Below are positions 1 through 11,907 of a stretch of 64,000 nt of DNA, in pieces. The translations under genes and the position numbers were made by a program. Source of the stretch: Ustilago trichophora (lineage: Eukaryota; Basidiomycota; Ustilaginomycetes; Ustilaginales; Ustilaginaceae). The stretch lies in the NCBI GenBank assembly GCA_900323505.1, contig OOIN01000031.1:1-64000 (forward strand), read 5' to 3'. The stretch's first letter is position 1. Every line of letters starts with the position of its first letter. A model generated the notes under the pieces. It had not been told where the DNA came from. It saw nothing but the letters and a program-made list of their open reading frames with translations, and ran no database searches.

Positions 1-104
1 CCCTAACCCTAACCCTAACCCTAACCCTAACCCTAACCCTAACCCTAACCCTAACCCTAACCCTAACCCTAACCCTAACCCTAACCCTAACCCTAACCCT
101 AACC

Positions 105-145
<41 letters not shown>

Positions 146-181
146 CCCTAACCCTAACCCTAACCCTAAACCTAACCCTAA
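1..181. repeat. Telomere repeat array (CCCTAA)n at the chromosome end
   Basis: The first 120 bases are twenty perfect CCCTAA units. The array continues to about base 180 with an extra A near 127 and degenerate units at 163-180 (AAACCTAACCC). This is the C-rich strand of a TTAGGG telomere, so base 1 is at or near the physical end of the chromosome. The array passes directly into the middle of a helicase gene at 181 with no spacer, which looks like a healed break. Confidence 0.98.
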
Positions 182-2406
182 GAGCGGTGAAGACACTGCC
201 ATCATGCACAAAGAGGTTGCGTGGACCAACAAGCGTGTTGGTGTGCTGCAATTGGAGCAGCTCTGTACCTCTTGCAGGCAGACCGCTACCAAGCTCAATG
301 AGCACCGCAAGCAGCTTGGTGAATTCATTGTGCATGCTGAAGTACGCATTGGCAGCATCTGCATCGAACTCCAACTCATCAGAGTATGGATCCATGAGGG
401 GTTGCGCAGCAGGTACGTTACCAGCAGCAGCACGGCAGAGAACACTGCTGATGCTCTGCAGCTCCGGAGAAGCGGCCACAAAGCTGAAGTCTGGTTGCAT
501 GTTGCGGTGATCATCCAGAATGTGCTTCAGGTTGAGCGCAAGTGATGCATCCTCTGGCAAAAGGCAGAGCTGACGTAGCAAAGCTTCTGCCCGCTTTTGC
601 GCACCATGCATCAGAGCTTGGAGACGGTCCACTTGGATGGTCTCTGTTCCAAACTTGACGCTCTTGAGATCTTGCTGCCAGGAAAAGTGGAAGTTGGTGC
701 CATCATCTTGCGCAAGTACTGTGCCATACCGGTGAAGGGATTGTAGGTATGAGCTGGCGGAGCTGCTGGTGCTGTACAGATAGCGCTTCATCTGTAGATC
801 AACCTTGGCAGCAATCTCCTCAGCAGAGCGCTCAATGAGCACACCATCTTCTGGATCCAACAGCCACTGCCAGAGCACTGCACGGCAGCAGAACTCCAAG
901 CTGGCAATGATGGACGTAGCGGCATTGACTGGAATGGGAGTGCCATCTGCGCTGACGCAGAGGTGGAGGAACAGCCGTACCAAAGCAAGCTTGTCATTCT
1001 CACCATACACCTCTGGCTGTTGCGTGACCAAGAGGTGAGAGAGTTGGAGGAGGAGCGGCACTGCCTTGCTTGCCAGATCTTCATCAGTGAGCGGATCAAT
1101 GTCTGCATCTGCACCGTAGTAAAGATCATGCAGATCTTGCAGTACAGAGTCCAGGTGTGCGCTGAGACCAAGATGCTCAGTCTGGTCACTGTCACCGTAA
1201 TAACCAAAAGAGACACCGTCAAAGACCGCATGGATAAGCAGAGCAAGTAAAAAGGCCCACATGTCCGCACGTTTCTTGACTGTTGGTAGGCTGAGGTTGT
1301 ACGGCTGGCTTGGTTCAGGACTGTAGGCACGGAAAGTCTGTTGCACCTGCCTGCCAGTCTTGAGGAAAGCCATCATCCATGTTGCGGCTGCTTGCTGTGT
1401 CATGACCAATACCCAATGGACAAAGTCTATATGAGCACCAGGCCACACCTTTTTTGACTTGCTGAGTGCGCCGATGGCCACAATAGGCTTGCCAGCCCAG
1501 TACGCATGCCAACCCAGCTGCTTGGCCCAAGGACCAATGTTGCCGCTGGCAGATTCAGGCTGAATGCCTGGCTTGAGCAGGTCTGCTTCACAGAGGCAAT
1601 CTTCATTCTTCTTGAGGAAGGCATCCACCTTTGTCTTGATATTGGCGCTGATGGTGCTGGCATCCAGAGCGGTGGTGAGAATGGCAGGAGGCGGTGTGGG
1701 ATCCAGATCTTGATTGCGGACGTGAAGGTAGCGGATCTTCTTGCCGCACTCGTGCAACTTCTGCATGGGAACAGGATGGGTGTATGATGCTCTGCCTTTA
1801 GCATCAGGATGCCCACGCAGATGCTCGTAGAAAGCAGACTTGGCTTGGACGGCATAGGAGCACAAGTTGCAGCGGTAGCCTTGGAAGAGCTCACCCAGCT
1901 CAGGAATCATGCGCTCTGGCAGAAGATCCTTGTTGATGCAGACCGTGCCAGGAGACGGTACATCCAGTTCATCAAGGAGGCTACGCAGCATATCCTTGGC
2001 AGACCCAACCAGCGGCTTCTTGTGGACCTTCTTGATGTGAGCCGTGACGTGCTTGAAGTCTGGGATGAGCGGCAATTGAGGACAACAGCTGTCCAGGGTG
2101 CAGAGCAGGATGCGGGGATGGTCCACCAAGCGTAAGTTGAAGCGTGCCAGCTGAGCGGTGTGCTGAGGATCCACTGGAGTGGAAATGGTGGTTTCTTGAT
2201 TTGCGGCTTGGTTGGCAGCAGGGAGAGCGTGACTGAATTCAAAAAATGCAAATAGTGATGTCAGCTGCTGATCATTGATGATGTGTGGTGATGATTGCCC
2301 AAACATACCTGTCCGTATCACTGACTGCGTCCATTGTGTTGATGCCTGCATCAACAAGTTCAGCAGCAAGTATGCTGTCATCAGGATGGAAAGATTGCTG
2401 AGACAT
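123..2406 (-). pseudogene. Telomere-linked helicase, copy A, cut by the telomere
   Basis: Only the N-terminal half of the subtelomeric helicase protein remains: exon 1 2309-2406, a 76-nt intron 2233-2308 (donor GTATGT, acceptor TTCAG), then exon 2 from 2232. The sequence is identical to copy B up to 181. The helicase lobe and most of the recombinase-like segment are gone. The frame then runs straight into the TTAGGG array, where AGG-GTT is read as a run of Arg-Val dipeptides, and stops at 123 only because one telomere unit has an extra base. The start is the ATG at 2406 in the context caaccATG. An unspliced reading would start at 2489, but the consensus splice sites and frame agreement favour the spliced one. 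The product has two C2H2-type fingers but can have no ATPase activity. I regard it as a broken gene that could still make a truncated protein. Confidence 0.85.
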
Positions 2407-2518
2407 GGTTGAAGAATTTGCTGGCGGTGGATAAAAGTGGTAGAGTACGGTAGAGAGAAGCTGGAATGGATTGTTGGATTGATGAGCAATGACGGTCAGC
2501 AACGGTCAGAAAGGCACA

Positions 2519-2528
2519 GTATATATGC
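2519..2528 (-). promoter_or_regulatory. TATA box of helicase copy A
   Basis: GCATATATAC on the minus strand lies about 115 nt upstream of the ATG at 2406. The identical element precedes copy B. Position and sequence fit a TATA-type core promoter. No transcript evidence is available here. Confidence 0.5.
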
Positions 2529-3149
2529 TTCAGAGGAGACAAGCAGCGCACATAGCAAGCACAGTCAGATGTACACGGTCAAGGATTCCAGCAAGCGTAA
2601 TGGGTTACAGCAACAGCCACTTGGAATCAATGTGTCCAAGAGGGAAACGTACAAAGGCTGAGATGGGTTCACTTGCGCTCATGCTCATCCAGACACACAC
2701 CGTAAAGCAATCAAGTCAAGAAAGGATAGTGCAGAGCTGTGAGCGGTGTGTAAAGTTTTGTTTCAGTGGCGGACAGACAAAGCTGTGTGGTGAGCAACAA
2801 GCAGACAAAGATCTGTGGTGTGTGACGGACAATGGACAACAGACAAAGGTGTACAGCGTGTGAAGGACAGACAAGGGTGTGGGTGCATGGCGGACAAAGG
2901 ACAAGTACGTCAAAGTCAAGCTGTGAGAAAAGCTGTCCGTCAAACACAAAGCAAACTCAAAGCAACGGTCTGCATTTGGGAGCATCTGAGTTAGCTTTGT
3001 TGGTTCCAGCCGTGAGAGTCATTGACTGTTGTCTCAACATTGTCCTTCACACGCTTCCAGACAAAGGAGCCATGACTTGACGGACCAGCCGCTGTTCAGA
3101 GTGCTGTTGAAGGATGTACACGCTGCCAAGATGAAATTACTGAAATTTG

Positions 3150-3736
3150 ACGCGTCTGTCAGTCAGTCAGCGCAGAGTCAAATTGTGCGCGGTGCAATGA
3201 GAATCTGTCTACTCATGCCCAGATGCGTCACACTCCTTGCTCCAAGGACACATTGCGCTCTCAATTTTGAGGCCAGCATTCTGATCAGATTTTTGGCAGA
3301 CATGATTTTTGACATTGTCCGTCAGTGTTTGTATTTGAGTTTTGTCTGTCTGCTGCAGTCCATGGGTACACATTGGTCACCGTCACACACCTGATCACTG
3401 CATATGTCTGCAGCAGGAATCACTTCCTCAATCATGTCCGCCAGTCAGTCACGTCTGTCACTTCACCAAGCTTCTCAGTCAGTCAGTCATGTCCATCACT
3501 CATGCTGTCTGCCAGTCAGTGAAGTGACAAACAGCTCAGTGAGTCTGCTGGGTGAGTGGGCTGCTCAGCCAAAAAAGTTGGATTGGTCTGTCAGGCACTA
3601 GAGCAGTGTGGGTGAGTGTGTCTGTCACGCTAGCAATTTCCCTGAATTTTGACGCGTCCGTCACCCACCTGTCCGCTGCCCAGCCAAGGAAAAAGAATTT
3701 TCCGTTGCGGCACTGCACCAGTGTTTTTTGACGCGT
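3150..3736. promoter_or_regulatory. Three ACGCGT boxes and GTCAGTC repeats, copy A
   Basis: TTTGACGCGTC-type boxes lie at 3150-3155, 3652-3657 and 3731-3736, and GTCAGTCAGTC runs lie at 3158-3171 and about 3470-3490. ACGCGT is the MluI cell-cycle box bound by MBF-type factors in ascomycete fungi. A regulatory role in this organism is inference. All three boxes are conserved in copy B. Confidence 0.35.
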
Positions 3737-3739
3737 CCC

Positions 3740-6700
3740 TCAGGCTGACGGAGCGCGGTCAGGTTGGCCATTTTGGCGGGACGGACTGGTGCTTCTCCTG
3801 CGGCTGGCGCACTGCGGCCTAGGGCTAGGGTGAGCTTCAAGGAGACGCTTGATTTGGAATGGCATTTCCACACTTGATGTAAGTTGCTGGACCTTGTAGG
3901 AGATGTTTTTGCGGTTGGTGGCCGCCCTGATCATGCCAGTACCATCTTGCGGGAGACAGAGTGTGGTCTTGAAGGTGGGAACCAGAGTTGGTGGCAGCGT
4001 AGCCGTAAGGAAGTACTGCTGCACCCGCACAGCAGAGATGAGTGCCTTGATCTTCTCCATTGCCGGACGGAAGGTGTTTTGAGTTACGCAGACATGGCAC
4101 TCATCAAAGAAGATGGCTGCCAACCGCTTCTGCTGATCCAACTCTTGCGCCCAGTTGGCAAATGCTTGACTGTAGCAGTTCTCTGCTGCAACAAAGACCA
4201 GCTGACTGCCCTCTACTCTGTCTGCACTCCGGTAGCCTGTCCACTTGCTTGCCACAATTCCAACCCACTGACACTGCTCCATCAGATCATCTGTGAGTGC
4301 AATGAATGGCACCACCACAATAATGACAGAGGCTGGCGGCAGCCAATGCAGCGGTGCCATGAAAAGTGCAGACTTGCCGGACCCAGTGGCCATGACAATG
4401 ATCAGTGGTGTCTCCTTGGCATAGATGGCATTGAGCGCATAGGCCTGCTCCAGTGTCTTGGTGCGGTGGCTGCCGGTCACCTTGAAGAGTGCATTGCTGA
4501 CTGGTTCTGCTAGCACAGCAGAGCGTGAAATGGGGGCAGCAGGCACCGCACTTGTAGCGCTTGGTGGAGCAACTTCAATTGGATGCTCCAGCCTTTGCTT
4601 GACACACCGCATGTCCTCCTGCAAAGCATCCAGCTGCCGCTTCAGTGAAGATACTGCCTTGCAGTCATCTCCTGCTGCCTTTCCTGCCATGAGGTGGTCA
4701 TATGGCTTGACGTCCTCTTCAAAGCGGGATGGCATACCCCAGAATGCATGCCACCGCTCTGACACTTCCAACATGACATCCATGCTCTCTTGCGTGAGCT
4801 GATGCAGCATGCTTGCATCCAGGCCATAGTGCTGCTCTGCAGTCCGTGTTGAATGTCCAGCTTGAAGATCGTGAGCGCTGTCCAACACCTCTTCTGCAGT
4901 CATGGACCTCGGACGGATGAGCTTGCGGTCAATGCTCACTGCCAGTTGCCGCCAAGTGCGCATGTTGAGGCCAGCCGTGATAGAGCTGATGTGCTCCTGG
5001 CAGAGTGCTTGCAGCATCTTGGTGACGGCATTTGTCTCCCATGCATTGCCGTGATGGTCCACCAAGAGCATAGAGCTGGCCGCACGGGGCTGCAGCACTG
5101 CATTATGTAGGAGATGGACAAACGGCACCACCTGAGCTACGTAAAAGACCACCATGCATCCCACTGGGTATGGCAGGAAGCGTGGAATCACCTTTTGACG
5201 TCCAGTGCCTTTCTTGCTGGGCAGAGCGGTGAAGACACTGCCATCATGCACAAAGAGGTTGCGTGGACCAACAAGCGTGTTGGTGTGCTGCAATTGGAGC
5301 AGCTCTGTACCTCTTGCAGGCAGACCGCTACCAAGCTCAATGAGCACCGCAAGCAGCTTGGTGAATTCATTGTGCATGCTGAAGTACGCATTGGCAGCAT
5401 CTGCATCGAACTCCAACTCATCAGAGTATGGATCCATGAGGGGTTGCGCAGCAGGTACGTTACCAGCAGCAGCACGGCAGAGAACACTGCTGATGCTCTG
5501 CAGCTCCGGAGAAGCGGCCACAAAGCTGAAGTCTGGTTGCATGTTGCGGTGATCATCCAGAATGTGCTTCAGGTTGAGCGCAAGTGATGCATCCTCTGGC
5601 AAAAGGCAGAGCTGACGTAGCAAAGCTTCTGCCCGCTTTTGCGCACCATGCATCAGAGCTTGGAGACGGTCCACTTGGATGGTCTCTGTTCCAAACTTGA
5701 CGCTCTTGAGATCTTGCTGCCAGGAAAAGTGGAAGTTGGTGCCATCATCTTGCGCAAGTACTGTGCCATACCGGTGAAGGGATTGTAGGTATGAGCTGGC
5801 GGAGCTGCTGGTGCTGTACAGATAGCGCTTCATCTGTAGATCAACCTTGGCAGCAATCTCCTCAGCAGAGCGCTCAATGAGCACACCATCTTCTGGATCC
5901 AACAGCCACTGCCAGAGCACTGCACGGCAGCAGAACTCCAAGCTGGCAATGATGGACGTAGCGGCATTGACTGGAATGGGAGTGCCATCTGCGCTGACGC
6001 AGAGGTGGAGGAACAGCCGTACCAAAGCAAGCTTGTCATTCTCACCATACACCTCTGGCTGTTGCGTGACCAAGAGGTGAGAGAGTTGGAGGAGGAGCGG
6101 CACTGCCTTGCTTGCCAGATCTTCATCAGTGAGCGGATCAATGTCTGCATCTGCACCGTAGTAAAGATCATGCAGATCTTGCAGTACAGAGTCCAGGTGT
6201 GCGCTGAGACCAAGATGCTCAGTCTGGTCACTGTCACCGTAATAACCAAAAGAGACACCGTCAAAGACCGCATGGATAAGCAGAGCAAGTAAAAAGGCCC
6301 ACATGTCCGCACGTTTCTTGACTGTTGGTAGGCTGAGGTTGTACGGCTGGCTTGGTTCAGGACTGTAGGCACGGAAAGTCTGTTGCACCTGCCTGCCAGT
6401 CTTGAGGAAAGCCATCATCCATGTTGCGGCTGCTTGCTGTGTCATGACCAATACCCAATGGACAAAGTCTATATGAGCACCAGGCCACACCTTTTTTGAC
6501 TTGCTGAGTGCGCCGATGGCCACAATAGGCTTGCCAGCCCAGTACGCATGCCAACCCAGCTGCTTGGCCCAAGGACCAATGTTGCCGCTGGCAGATTCAG
6601 GCTGAATGCCTGGCTTGAGCAGGTCTGCTTCACAGAGGCAATCTTCATTCTTCTTGAGGAAGGCATCCACCTTTGTCTTGATATTGGCGCTGATGGTGCT

Positions 6701-7448
6701 GGCATCCAGAGCGGTGGTGAGAATGGCAGGAGGCGGTGTGGGATCCAGATCTTGATTGCGGACGTGAAGGTAGCGGATCTTCTTGCCGCACTCGTGCAAC
6801 TTCTGCATGGGAACAGGATGGGTGTATGATGCTCTGCCTTTAGCATCAGGATGCCCACGCAGATGCTCGTAGAAAGCAGACTTGGCTTGGACGGCATAGG
6901 AGCACAAGTTGCAGCGGTAGCCTTGGAAGAGCTCACCCAGCTCAGGAATCATGCGCTCTGGCAGAAGATCCTTGTTGATGCAGACCGTGCCAGGAGACGG
7001 TACATCCAGTTCATCAAGGAGGCTACGCAGCATATCCTTGGCAGACCCAACCAGCGGCTTCTTGTGGACCTTCTTGATGTGAGCCGTGACGTGCTTGAAG
7101 TCTGGGATGAGCGGCAATTGAGGACAACAGCTGTCCAGGGTGCAGAGCAGGATGCGGGGATGGTCCACCAAGCGTAAGTTGAAGCGTGCCAGCTGAGCGG
7201 TGTGCTGAGGATCCACTGGAGTGGAAATGGTGGTTTCTTGATTTGCGGCTTGGTTGGCAGCAGGGAGAGCGTGACTGAATTCAAAAAATGCAAATAGTGA
7301 TGTCAGCTGCTGATCATTGATGATGTGTGGTGATGATTGCCCAAACATACCTGTCCGTATCACTGACTGCGTCCATTGTGTTGATGCCTGCATCAACAAG
7401 TTCAGCAGCAAGTATGCTGTCATCAGGATGGAAAGATTGCTGAGACAT
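3740..7448 (-). CDS. Telomere-linked RecQ-type helicase with zinc fingers and a tyrosine-recombinase-like domain, 3'-truncated
   Basis: Exon 1 is 7351-7448, the intron 7275-7350 (76 nt, GTATGT...TTCAG) and exon 2 3740-7274, giving 1210 residues. Residues about 70-175 hold two C2H2-type fingers (C77, C82, H94, H98; and C154, C157, H170, H174) of OrsD type. Residues about 670-860 look like a tyrosine recombinase core: R687 in ARGTEL, R808 in RTWRQL, H840 and Y849 in GHSTRTAEQHY. From about 965 there is a RecQ-like ATPase lobe with the upstream Q motif, Walker A ATGSGKS (995-1001), DECH (1090-1093) and TAT (1123-1125). The second RecA lobe is missing. The frame crosses the unit junction at about 3830 and adds some 30 foreign residues before a stop. 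Subtelomeric RecQ helicases are known in Ustilago (UTASa), Magnaporthe and fission yeast. The truncation makes strand unwinding doubtful. The domain names are my reading of motifs, not a database match. Confidence 0.85.
3818..3830. other. Telomere-like motif at the junction of the two repeat units
   Basis: CCTAGGGCTAGGG sits exactly where copy A ends and copy B begins inside the helicase reading frame. The proximal end of copy B carries the same motif minus its last G (8865-8876). It resembles two degenerate TTAGGG units, but in the opposite orientation to the telomere at base 1. It therefore marks the unit boundary and is not a simple leftover of the distal telomere. Confidence 0.6.
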
Positions 7449-7560
7449 GGTTGAAGAATTTGCTGGCGGTGGATAAAAGTGGTAGAGTACGGTAGAGAGA
7501 AGCTGGAATGGATTGTTGGATTGATGAGCAATGACGGTCAGCAACGGTCAGAAAGGCACA

Positions 7561-7570
7561 GTATATATGC
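7561..7570 (-). promoter_or_regulatory. TATA box of helicase copy B
   Basis: GCATATATAC on the minus strand lies about 115 nt before the ATG at 7448, at the same distance as in copy A. The ATG has the favourable context caaccATG. Confidence 0.5.
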
Positions 7571-8200
7571 TTCAGAGGAGACAAGCAGCGCACATAGCAA
7601 GCACAGTCAGATGTACACTGTCAAGGATTCCAGCAAGCGTAACGGGTTACAGCAACAGCCACTTGAAGCACACAATGTGTCCAAGAGGGAAACGTACAAA
7701 GGTAAGATGGTTTCACTTGCGCTCACACTCACGCAGACACACACCGTAAAGCAATCAAGACAAGAAAGGATAGTGCAGAGCTGTGAGCGGTGTGGAAAAT
7801 TTTGTTTCAGTGACGGACAGACAAAGCTGTGTGGTGAGCAACAAGCAGACAAAGATGTGTGGTGTGTGACGGACAACAGACAACGGACAACAGACAAAGG
7901 TGTACAGCGTGTGAAGGACAGACAAGCATGTGGGTGCATGGCGGACAAAGGACAAGTACGTCAAAGTCAAGCTGTGAGAAAATCTGTCTGTCAAACACAA
8001 AGCTCACTCAAAGCAAAGGTCCGCACTTGGGAGCATCTGAGTTAGCTTTGTTGGTTCCAGCCGTGAGAGTCATTGACTGTTGTCTCAACATTGTCCTTCA
8101 CACGCTTCCAGACAAAGGAGCCATGACTTGACGGACCAGCTGCTGTTCAGAGTGCTGTTGAAGGATGTACACGCTGCCAAGATGAAATTACTGAAATTTG

Positions 8201-8783
8201 ACGCGTCTGTCAGTCAGTCAGCGCAGAGTCAAATTGTGCGCGGTGCAATGAGAATCTGTCTACTCATGCCCAGATGCGTCACACTCCTTGCTCCAAGGAC
8301 ACATTGCGATCTCAATTTTGAGGCCAGCATTCTGATCAGATTTTTGGCAGACATGATTTTTGACATTGTCCGTCAGTGTTTGTATTTGAGTTTTGTCTGT
8401 CTGCTGCAGTCCATGGGTACACATTGGTCACCGTCACACACCTGATCACTGCATATGTCTGCAGCACGGGTCACTTCCTCAATCATGTCCGCCAGTCAGT
8501 CACGTCTGTCACTTCACCAAGTCAGTCAGTCAGTCATGTCTGTCACTCATGCTGTCTGCCAGTCAGTGAAGTGACGGACAGCTCAGTGAGTCTGCTCCAT
8601 GAGTAGGCCGCTCAGCCAAAAAAGTTGGATTGGTCTGTCAGGCACTAGAGCAGTGTGGGTGAGCGTGTCTGTCACGCTAGCAATTTCCCTGAATTTTGAC
8701 GCGTCCGTCACCCACCTGTCCGCTGCCCAGCCAAGGAAAAAGAATTTTCCGTTGCGGCACTGCACCAGTGTTTTTTGACGCGT
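8201..8783. promoter_or_regulatory. Three ACGCGT boxes and GTCAGTC repeats, copy B
   Basis: ACGCGT occurs at 8201-8206, 8699-8704 and 8778-8783. GTCAGTCAGTC runs lie at 8209-8222 and about 8519-8536. All three boxes survive although the surrounding non-coding arm has drifted between copies. Confidence 0.35.
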
Positions 8784-8864
8784 CCCTCAGGCTGACGGAG
8801 CGTGGTCAGGTTGGCCATTTTGGCGGGACGGACTGGTGCTTCTCCTGCGGCTGGCGCACCGCAG

Positions 8865-8876
8865 CCTAGGGCTAGG
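8865..8876. other. Telomere-like motif at the proximal edge of the repeat unit
   Basis: CCTAGGGCTAGG is the last sequence shared with copy A before unique DNA begins at 8877. It matches the junction motif at 3818-3830, so the repeat unit appears to have a fixed end point. Confidence 0.6.
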
Positions 8877-9000
8877 CATATGCATTTTTGGACAAAGCTG
8901 CACATGGAGGTGTCCAATTGCAATTTCACTGCCAGATATGTGATCCTGACATGCTAGAGCATCAACAAGGCCATTCACATGTTAGATTGATGTCGGAGGT

Positions 9001-9026
9001 CCTTAGGGGTAAATTTACCCCTGAGG
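9001..9026. repeat. Near-perfect palindrome with TTAGGGGT arms
   Basis: The 18-base core AGGGGTAAATTTACCCCT is a perfect palindrome. It extends to 26 bases (CCTTAGGGG...CCCCTGAGG) with one mismatched pair. The arm TTAGGGGT recurs at 9138, 9151 and 9532 and in inverse form at 9472. Confidence 0.8.
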
Positions 9027-9136
9027 CTGTCGGACCAATTCTGGCTGCTGAGAGTGTGACATGGAAGGGCACAGCCTACTGATCATATATCTGGAGAAAA
9101 GAAGGCCAATTAATAAGGCCGCTTATGCTGGAGACC

Positions 9137-9180
9137 CTTAGGGGTAAAACTTAGGGGTAACGTTTTCACGTTAACCCCTG
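9137..9180. repeat. Direct and inverted CTTAGGGGTAA repeats
   Basis: CTTAGGGGTAA occurs twice head to tail (9137 and 9150). The second copy forms an imperfect hairpin with ACGTTAACCCCT (AGGGGTAACGT, short loop, ACGTTAACCCCT). The sequences just before the arms are related to those at 8995 and 9470 (GGAG/GAGACC before CTTAGGGG). Confidence 0.7.
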
Positions 9181-9526
9181 TACCATCATGACCGTCCAGC
9201 TTCAGGCTGTGACACTGTGCATACCTCCATTTGGCACCATTGTGCACATCTTTCATTAAGAGACCAAGGCAAAAGGGCTCACTTTTTCCGAAAAGTTGGT
9301 GCTACAATGGTCCCCCCTTTGGATTTGGCCGTTTTTTCCACTTTTTCTGCCCCTACACCCTCAATTCACATCTGATGGCTCTGCAAACTCTGGAAACATA
9401 GTTTGTAGCCTAGATGCATCCAACAAGTCTTCAAGTTGCCAGATTGGAGCAAAAAAGTTTTTTACCCCTAAGCTCCGACCCCAACTTTGATGCAACCCTA
9501 CGCAAAATTTTATTATGCTTTCAGCC

Positions 9527-9982
9527 TTAGGGGTCACCAGCACTTTTGATAAGCACCCAAAATGCTACATGAATCCACAAAAAGCAGCACTCAACCCTGT
9601 GCGGGGAGTACCTTGTAACCCAAAGCATCACCAGTTTGCTCTTCTCCTCCTCCTTGGACCGCATGCGATGCTCCAAGTCCTTCTCCCAGGTCTCTACCTG
9701 ATCATCATCCAGCAGCACCGACATACGGCTGCGTGACACCAAACGCGAAAGTCGCGTGGCAGAGTGATACGCCGCTTTGGCTTTTGGCTTGTCTTGGTTC
9801 GCCTTATGAAATTGGGCGAGGGAGAATGGCGAGGCGATTGAAGTATAGTTGGTGAAGATGAGAGTATAGTTGATAGGTCCAAATTGACAAAAAGACGTGA
9901 TGCAGAGCAAGAGAATTGCTGAGCTGCGCACGCGCCTCCATTTTGGACGCACAAGCCGAAAAAGCTCCAGTTGTGCTGCCAT
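9527..9982 (-). pseudogene. Possible decayed exon, no family recognised
   Basis: One open frame contains a stretch that looks like real protein (about 9620-9790: basic, then SVLLDDDQVETWEKDLEHRM and a Lys/Glu-rich helix) ending near a GT that could be a donor. The two ends of the frame look non-coding and no start with good context is present. It may be a relic of a gene disrupted at the subtelomere border. I do not recognise it. Confidence 0.22.
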
Positions 9983-10424: not shown

Positions 10425-11444
10425 CTATAGTTGAGCTTTGTGCTGAGCAATGGAGCGAGTCCAGGATTGGCGGAGGAAGTCAGTGAACTCGTTGTAAACA
10501 TGGTCTCGACGCTGTATAGATGCAGGCCCACGAGGAAGCTTATCAAAGCCATGGCCTTCTTTTTCTATGCTGATGAAACGTGCATCTGACCTTCCTGCAT
10601 CGTTGAGTTTGCGGACGAGCTTCTCCGAGGCATAGTGGAGAGTGTCGACTTGACCGGATGCAAGGAGGAGCGGTGGGAAGCGAGCGGCATCTACGTAGTA
10701 GACGCTGCAAAGTGGATGTGATCTGTCTTGTTGACGAACAAAGTAGGAGTCCATGAAAAAGTTGGACAGCCAAGCTGGTAGTGGGAGGCCGCTATCTGGT
10801 CGATCTTTGGTGGGCAAGGGACGGTCACCGGGTTTGACGGTGAAGTCTACGACAGGGTAGAGTGCAGCAACGCCAGCGATGCGTTGTGGGCCGAGGTGGG
10901 CACCAACGACCAGAGCCAGGTTGCCTCCTGCTGAGAATCCACCGAGAGTGACACGGTCTGAGTCATAGATGTTTGGGTGAGCGAGAATGTAGTTGACAAG
11001 ATCCTGAGCATCGTGACTTGCTGCGGGGAAGGGATGTTCGGGTGCTTTACGATAGTCGGCATCGATAAAGATGCAGTTGGGACCGAGCTTGTCCAAGACG
11101 TGTGTGATGTATGCAAAGTCGTCGCCGAGATTGGGGAGAACAAAGCCGGAGCCATGCCAAGAGATGTGAACGGGCAGAGGAGCGGCGACACCGTCCGAGG
11201 TTGGTGCGACGCGGTTTGAGCGGTAGATGTGTGCTCGGATGGTGCGACCAGGCTGGCGTGAAGGAAGGTGGACAATTTGACGTTGGAATCCATGAGGGAG
11301 CGGTGATCGTGAGCCATGAAGGAGGGGTCGAAGTGAGTTGAGGGATCGCATGAGGAGAACAATGGCTTTGAGGCGTACGTATTGGAGACTCCAAGCATGT
11401 AGCGTTTCTTGTGGCGGTGTTGATGGTGACGAAGAAGATGACAT
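10425..11444 (-). CDS. Alpha/beta hydrolase, hormone-sensitive-lipase-like esterase
   Basis: A 339-residue serine hydrolase with all the parts of the family: oxyanion-hole motif HGSG (97-100; the usual form is HGGG), nucleophile elbow GFSAG with Ser171 (usually GDSAG), Asp267 in GQVDTLHYASE and His298 in EGHGFD. The segment DADYRKAPEHPFPAA is the conserved strand and turn before the elbow in this family. It would hydrolyse carboxyl esters of small or lipophilic substrates; the substrate cannot be told. I see no signal peptide, so a cytosolic enzyme is likely. The ATG at 11444 is the first in the frame; the 17 upstream codons begin only with TTG. It is the first intact gene from the telomere and points towards it. 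Confidence 0.9.
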   Translation of the reverse strand: MSSSSSPSTPPQETLHAWSLQYVRLKAIVLLMRSLNSLRPLLHGSRSPLPHGFQRQIVHLPSRQPGRTIRAHIYRSNRVAPTSDGVAAPLPVHISWHGSGFVLPNLGDDFAYITHVLDKLGPNCIFIDADYRKAPEHPFPAASHDAQDLVNYILAHPNIYDSDRVTLGGFSAGGNLALVVGAHLGPQRIAGVAALYPVVDFTVKPGDRPLPTKDRPDSGLPLPAWLSNFFMDSYFVRQQDRSHPLCSVYYVDAARFPPLLLASGQVDTLHYASEKLVRKLNDAGRSDARFISIEKEGHGFDKLPRGPASIQRRDHVYNEFTDFLRQSWTRSIAQHKAQL

Positions 11445-11907
11445 GGTTGCGAGAGCGGCAATGTAATTGCTATGGTCTATCTGTTCCGATTCCAAAGTTC
11501 AAGATTGGGAGGCAAGAGCCAATGATTGACGATGAGCAAAGAGAAGAAAACAGCAGCGTCAATGTTGGGAGCACCAATCCTCCAATCCTCTCAGCAGGCA
11601 GTCTATACTTACAGGCTGGAGCAAAGTTGGCGCAGATCTGTGGCTATCAGCTCGTCTGGAAATGTCGTCGACTCACACAACAAGTTGATTCGATAATTGT
11701 AAACTGTGCCTTGCCATGTCAAGGTCGAGTGTCTAGTCTGTTGTGGCCATGATCAATAAACACGTCGCGTTAGGTGTTGACACAAACGAGATCACTGTGA
11801 CAGGCTCTGTGTCGGTGTTGCACAGCCTGTGTCGGGTGTGTGTCGGGTGAGTGATGGCCTGTGCTCGTATGTGTGCTGTGTGGATGTGGAGGCAAAGATA
11901 GGCGCAC

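Follow-up and report, generated by a model that had tools for sequence, protein, structure and literature searches.

In the smut fungus Ustilago trichophora, a gene near a telomere encodes a three-part protein in which zinc fingers are followed by a tyrosine recombinase (active site R-K-R-H-Y) and then a RecQ helicase, and this gene is the first inside the precise end of an element found at many contig ends. It was analysed in a 64,000-nucleotide stretch of contig OOIN01000031.1 (hereafter the window, meaning the whole stretch). The surroundings of the gene suggest that helicases of this kind, long known from fungal telomeres, are part of mobile elements able to replace chromosome ends. Smut telomeres have been known to carry RecQ-like genes since a 1998 report (cited in PMC10532341), and the accessible parts of later papers leave their function open (PMC10532341, PMC12857005).

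A conserved recombinase active site

An earlier interpretation made from the letters of the DNA (the sequence-only reading) had picked out R687, R808, H840 and Y849 of the spliced protein, in the contexts ARGTEL, RTWRQL and GHSTRTAEQHY, as a tyrosine-recombinase-like core. These contexts are present, and the residues correspond to R704, R825, H857 and Y866 of the window open reading frame (ORF), whose numbering is used below unless stated. To follow them in homologues, window residues 260–905 were aligned with 52 of the 66 proteins found, which are 16–62% identical to the window protein (alignment A1); P0001, P0007, P0011, P0012, P0017–P0021, P0026, P0049, P0060, P0061 and P0064 were excluded as duplicates, fragments or fusions. 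All four residues are kept in nearly all aligned homologues, and so is the catalytic lysine K738, which the earlier residue list lacked (counts in Table 1). The solely invariant columns are Arg704, Glu707 and Tyr866. Exceptions elsewhere are His for Arg II in P0008 and P0015, Arg for His III in P0043, P0046, P0048, P0050 and P0051, and Gln for Lys in P0050. Judged by name, the aligned proteins come from smuts and Pezizomycotina, with one Armillaria protein (P0066) and many unnamed metagenomic sequences. A search from P0066 returned 18 hits including itself, all Agaricomycetes by name; when 17 of them (P0080 left out) were aligned with P0001 and five other members (alignment A3), R687, E690, R808, H840 and Y849 were kept in at least 90% of rows and K721 in all (spliced numbering). 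The active site is strongly constrained, and purifying selection is evident.

This constraint bears on whether the domain might be a dead DNA-binding relic, as the tyrosine-recombinase domain is in the kinetochore protein Ndc10. A binding relic need not keep five catalytic residues, yet these are kept across very distant relatives, and we consider such a relic very improbable. The His of the HxxR motif is, as first noticed, replaced in the window protein (by R822); in A1 its position holds Gln in 25 proteins, Arg in 14, His, Ala and Leu in 4 each and Ser in 2. Xer, Cre, lambda Int and Tn1549 Int have this His, and its position is also variable in other recombinases.

Predicted fold of the recombinase region

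The fold comparison that the sequence-only reading had proposed came out in its favour: the predicted fold of the region is that of a tyrosine-recombinase catalytic domain. With the domain model, the first 26 rows of a Foldseek search were recombinases; with a larger model the first three rows alone were, unrelated folds being mixed in after them. Against viral models the top row was a phage integrase (E 0.0027). The predicted catalytic fold and the register of the nucleophile are shared with Xer, Cre, lambda Int and Tn1549 Int at about 9–14% sequence identity in the structural alignments, in which Tyr866 of the model falls on Y379 of Tn1549 Int and, by extrapolation, in the same register in Cre and lambda Int. 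The alignments with Cre, lambda Int and Tn1549 Int extend over residues 319–555, the probable core-binding part, at a root-mean-square deviation of 8–9. The protein differs from all four in its replaced HxxR His and in its fused zinc fingers and RecQ helicase.

A phmmer search of the PDB with the window protein gave helicases and a few weak zinc-finger or other matches, with no recombinase among the matches listed, and a 53-sequence profile gave helicases, with no recombinase in the best 60 of 309. Pfam gave no recombinase for the window protein, and in a scan of 23 members, within the sensitivity that HMMER filters allow, none of the 24 families matched at E up to 10 was a recombinase family; most matches were to DEAD, Helicase_C, OrsD and ResIII. 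A single-protein query of viral contigs, with close relatives only within its reach, found no relative. Because the matches listed in these sequence searches include no recombinase, the assignment rests on the residues and the predicted fold; on these, a tyrosine-recombinase domain is very probably present, and since Pfam leaves it out in 23 of 23 members, it may be overlooked in many genomes. While the domain is well supported, the reaction it would catalyse is a matter of interpretation.

The R-K-R-H-Y set and the predicted fold are also compatible with a type IB topoisomerase. The protein might be a host telomere-maintenance enzyme, its recombinase-like domain acting as a type IB topoisomerase or junction resolvase together with the RecQ motor on recombining telomeres, as a one-chain analogue of RecQ–topoisomerase pairs. 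In the structure comparison, however, the top scores belong to Xer and Cre (12.7 to 9.2), by a modest gap, and the region before the catalytic domain is predicted to be mostly helical, as is the region preceding the catalytic domain in recombinases. A host enzyme would also leave the precise terminus described below unexplained, and we regard it as improbable.

A precise terminus with many flanks

A protein search of the genome gave 39 matches, namely 38 gene copies, a lower bound, and a 29-residue fragment (C16:9767–9853) that was excluded from the count. Every one of the 38 copies is oriented toward the nearest contig end and lies at most 9,847 bases from it, on 28 contigs in all, so that the family is telomere-linked in the sense of a RecQ gene at many chromosome ends; many copies are 98–100% identical. 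The last 200 bp of the inner of two copies in the window occur 40 times in the genome, and in all 31 gene copies at 90% identity or more the terminus lies about 1.4–1.6 kb upstream of the gene.

We examined 47 termini, seven of them from diverged subfamilies (five of the seven diverged gene copies were covered, those on C10 and at C28:145–2943 lying outside the coverage). Of these, 44 end exactly in CCTAGGGCTAGG, six with an additional GCTAGG unit; the inexact ones are L071, L074 and L075. The exact termini are joined to 39 different flank classes, which we grouped ourselves by their first bases with a 75% identity threshold. The base after the terminus is G in 25 of the 39 flanks (P 1.7e-6 against the G content of the window), and this G may belong to the terminus itself. 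The terminal 12-mer is an inverted repeat, CCTAG-GG-CTAGG. Two subfamilies whose proteins are 51–61% identical to that of the window have the same final 13 bp, GCCTAGGGCTAGG, and further conserved blocks such as CCGTTGCGGCACT lie within the last 170 bp. By BLAST, the upstream DNA of these two subfamilies aligns over at most about 130 bp, at the very end, except for a C12-type remnant of recent origin on C14 and C43; between the window type and the C12 type the alignment covers 40 bp and no more. The element thus has a precise, conserved terminus. The sequence-only reading had suggested that the helicase genes are, or descend from, a mobile element, and this terminus, set against 39 flanks, makes it more probable.

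At its other side the element meets the telomere. Telomere was added directly at six different points in seven loci, and the copies examined show one element end alone and no native far end; in the longest copy, on C22, the element is at least 14 kb.

Short target sites

Joins were compared with eight unoccupied counterparts of the joined flanks. GG stands at the join in six of the eight and AGG in five. Three targets lie inside the element: AGGG at the window 3827 join, AGG at L065, and that of L057, which cannot be read either way, with AGAG in 33 sequences and AGGG in two, the two coming from a single genomic copy (C29). One, TAGGGG (L048), lies in a subtelomeric repeat. At other places in the genome, C16 and C21 have AAGG, of which the C21 join shares GG alone, and C10 has TGGG. 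In the eighth, the C43 counterpart (88% identical) of the chromosomal flank in the window, GG is absent. These few cases suggest a preference for AGG(G). C10/C11 is the likely allelic pair and the sole collinear case, with 90% identity over 151 bp, and the element-bearing C11 starts where C10 continues for 63 kb. C21 and C16 are ruled out as alleles by their orientation. C26 and C29 have the same orientation, and the L042 flank is part of repeats.

Proposed mechanism

Variable targets combined with a fixed element breakpoint are the mark of a site-specific recombinase, and the first gene of the element encodes such an enzyme. We therefore think it fairly probable, with some reserve, that this is a telomere-borne tyrosine-recombinase element and that its recombinase replaces chromosome ends by joining the terminus to short sites, often AGG(G); that this very protein acts in the joins we likewise rate as the better bet. 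The steps that we infer, from cleavage and joining by the protein to the single-exchange route and the task of the helicase, would run as follows. The protein would bind its own element at the conserved terminal stretch of roughly 120 bp and cut near the terminal CCTAGGGCTAGG through Y866. It would then join the cut end to a short chromosomal site, or to one within another copy, in many cases AGG(G), and a single exchange would replace all distal sequence with element plus telomere, while the helicase might assist in opening or processing the junction. If the far end of the element is a telomere, one exchange would be enough to replace a chromosome end, and one-sided joins and uniform orientation would follow.

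The main rival is passive spread. Here the element would be a subtelomeric repeat like yeast Y′, spreading by break-induced replication or ectopic recombination with the recombinase domain uninvolved in the joins. Several observations fit it and weigh against a recombinase-made join: all 38 copies sit at ends and point outward, many are nearly identical, the truncation points on the telomere side vary, the bases in common at joins are few (none to six), and the literature, in its accessible parts, discusses these genes as repeats that may have a role at telomeres and not as recombinases. The proposed mechanism is also weakened somewhat by two of the eight targets, L057 and the C43 counterpart, and the assignment to the superfamily slightly by the HxxR His, kept in 4 of the 53 proteins in A1. 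Spread driven by homology, however, should not give one exact breakpoint against 39 flanks or leave an identical final 13 bp in subfamilies that hardly align in the rest of their upstream DNA, and the recombinase active site is strongly constrained. We judge passive spread unlikely.

Candidate dioxygenase genes on the telomere side

Further genes were examined in L085 alone (G000 C39:1–7600), where three ORFs lie on the telomere side of the helicase gene: 5952–7445 (−), 4699–5754 (−) and 1526–2470 (+). The second and third are 21% and 23% identical to the first. Their weak matches to Tet_JBP are at E 6.9e-5 for the first, none for the second and 0.045 for the third, below the cut-off, and the HxD motif is invariant. 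PDB hits were three only, two Tet-like dioxygenases and one 5-methylcytosine-modifying enzyme (E 0.022, 0.033 and 1.5). As far as sequence goes, these ORFs are possible DNA-base dioxygenases carried at telomeres. Other long copies match the ORF-bearing DNA of L085 at more than 99%. Situated between the dioxygenase-like ORFs, at L085:3730–4335, is an imperfect palindrome some 0.6 kb long, which matches its reverse complement at 77.6% identity.

Relation to known elements

We class the element among tyrosine-recombinase elements, with a leading recombinase gene as in Starships or Cryptons and without DUF3435. Cryptons, fungal elements that likewise encode a tyrosine recombinase, are compared here by description; to our knowledge they carry no RecQ helicase. 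Starships, as far as the accessible text describes them, likewise have a tyrosine recombinase in the leading 5′ gene with other genes behind it (PMC12134995), which is the arrangement found here. They differ in that RecQ is here fused to the recombinase, one end is the telomere and the host is a smut, whereas Starships are described from Pezizomycotina in that text (PMC12134995). The DUF3435 (PF11917) captain had no match in the 23 members at E up to 10, within the same HMMER filter limits. FoTeR and MoTeR elements are likewise telomere-associated, and theirs are reverse-transcriptase elements; no reverse transcriptase appeared among the element ORFs scanned, although no search was aimed at one. 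In Fusarium, according to the accessible text, FoTeRs often lie beside telomere-linked helicase (TLH) genes (PMC12857005).

Fungal TLH genes, among them UTASa/UTASb of Ustilago maydis, share the chromosome-end position and the RecQ core, and some TLH have an OrsD domain, as the accessible text reports (PMC10532341); neither 'recombinase' nor 'integrase' turned up when that paper was searched for these terms. Our literature search found no paper linking TLH with tyrosine recombinases, and several key papers outside it might still mention the domain. The conserved active site and precise terminus make a testable claim, that TLH would be site-specific recombinases which swap chromosome ends. If true, this would explain the spread and fixed orientation of TLH, and perhaps their upregulation on telomerase loss, and would add to the mobile elements of eukaryotes a type with a telomere as one of its ends. 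A wider generalization, that fungal TLH are the recombinase-helicases of new one-ended mobile elements that replace ends by single exchange and carry TET/JBP-like dioxygenase genes, we offer tentatively, as a possibility more than a probability.

Gene and locus

Two element copies follow the telomere in tandem, both genes on the minus strand and oriented toward it (Table 1). The outer, telomere-proximal copy is 98.4% identical to positions 5223–8876. The homology of the inner copy to intact copies ends near 3827, at the joined outer-copy terminus; at this position intact copies read CGGC-AGGG-TGAGC.

Table 1 Features of the window's telomeric end (residues in window-ORF numbering; fractions count proteins of alignment A1 that keep the residue)
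Feature	Position	Strand	Residues	Remark
Telomere, CCCTAA repeats	1..180	+		Abuts truncated gene copy directly
Outer (telomere-proximal) element copy	181..3829	−		3′ side truncated by telomere
Gene remnant of outer copy	177–2381
Outer copy's terminus, CCTAGGGCTAGG	3818..3829
Inner element copy	3827..8876	−		Helicase interrupted by outer copy's terminus
AGGG at inner/outer join	3827..3830			Common to terminus and target
Inner copy's ORF	3743..7423	−		1227 codons open; codons past about 3827 from outer copy
First RecQ/DEAD lobe	3818..4501	−	975–1202
DECH	4094–4111	−
Walker A	4370–4393	−
Tyrosine-recombinase catalytic domain	4724..5758	−	556–900	Predicted fold
Nucleophile Tyr	4826..4828	−	Y866	53/53
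His III	4853..4855	−	H857	48/53
Arg II	4949..4951	−	R825	51/53
Catalytic Lys	5210..5212	−	K738	52/53
Arg I	5312..5314	−	R704	53/53
Mostly helical region, probable core-binding part	5759..6469	−	319–555	Predicted secondary structure
Second C2H2-type finger	6851..6919	−	169–191
First C2H2-type finger, OrsD-like	7064..7150	−	92–120
Spliced start, MSQQSFHPDD	7448			Same as annotated U. trichophora protein P0001
Terminal 200 bp of inner copy	8677..8876			Conserved blocks in common with two diverged subfamilies
Inner copy's terminus, CCTAGGGCTAGG	8865..8876			Joined to chromosomal sequence

The coordinates and frame first given for the inner-copy ORF are correct, and the ORF is 100% identical (rounded) to P0001 (1637 residues) over the part searched. 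Of the two C2H2 fingers proposed earlier, both patterns are found, with weak Pfam support in the window protein (OrsD E 0.02, zf-C2H2 model E 0.013, both below curated cut-offs); OrsD was matched at E up to 10 in 17 of 23 family members. The single helicase lobe reported before holds for the window copy but not for intact P0001, in which Pfam finds both DEAD and Helicase_C. RecQ membership accordingly refers to intact copies with both lobes, and the closest solved relatives of the helicase are RecQ proteins. One family member, P0049 of Fusarium oxysporum (2189 residues), has PF05699, which we take to be hAT dimerisation, in its precomputed Pfam list, perhaps because a transposon is nested in the gene or because separate gene models were merged.

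The chromosomal flank (window 8880–9880) is itself repetitive, parts of it matching nine places in the genome, its own included; at one of these, the right end of C2, another element terminus is joined at TAGGGG. The 38.8 Mb genome, with its many paired matches, looks like two haplotypes. Farther in, at 10425–11498 (−), a 357-residue ORF resembles by eye an alpha/beta hydrolase of the HSL/esterase kind (GGFSAGGN).
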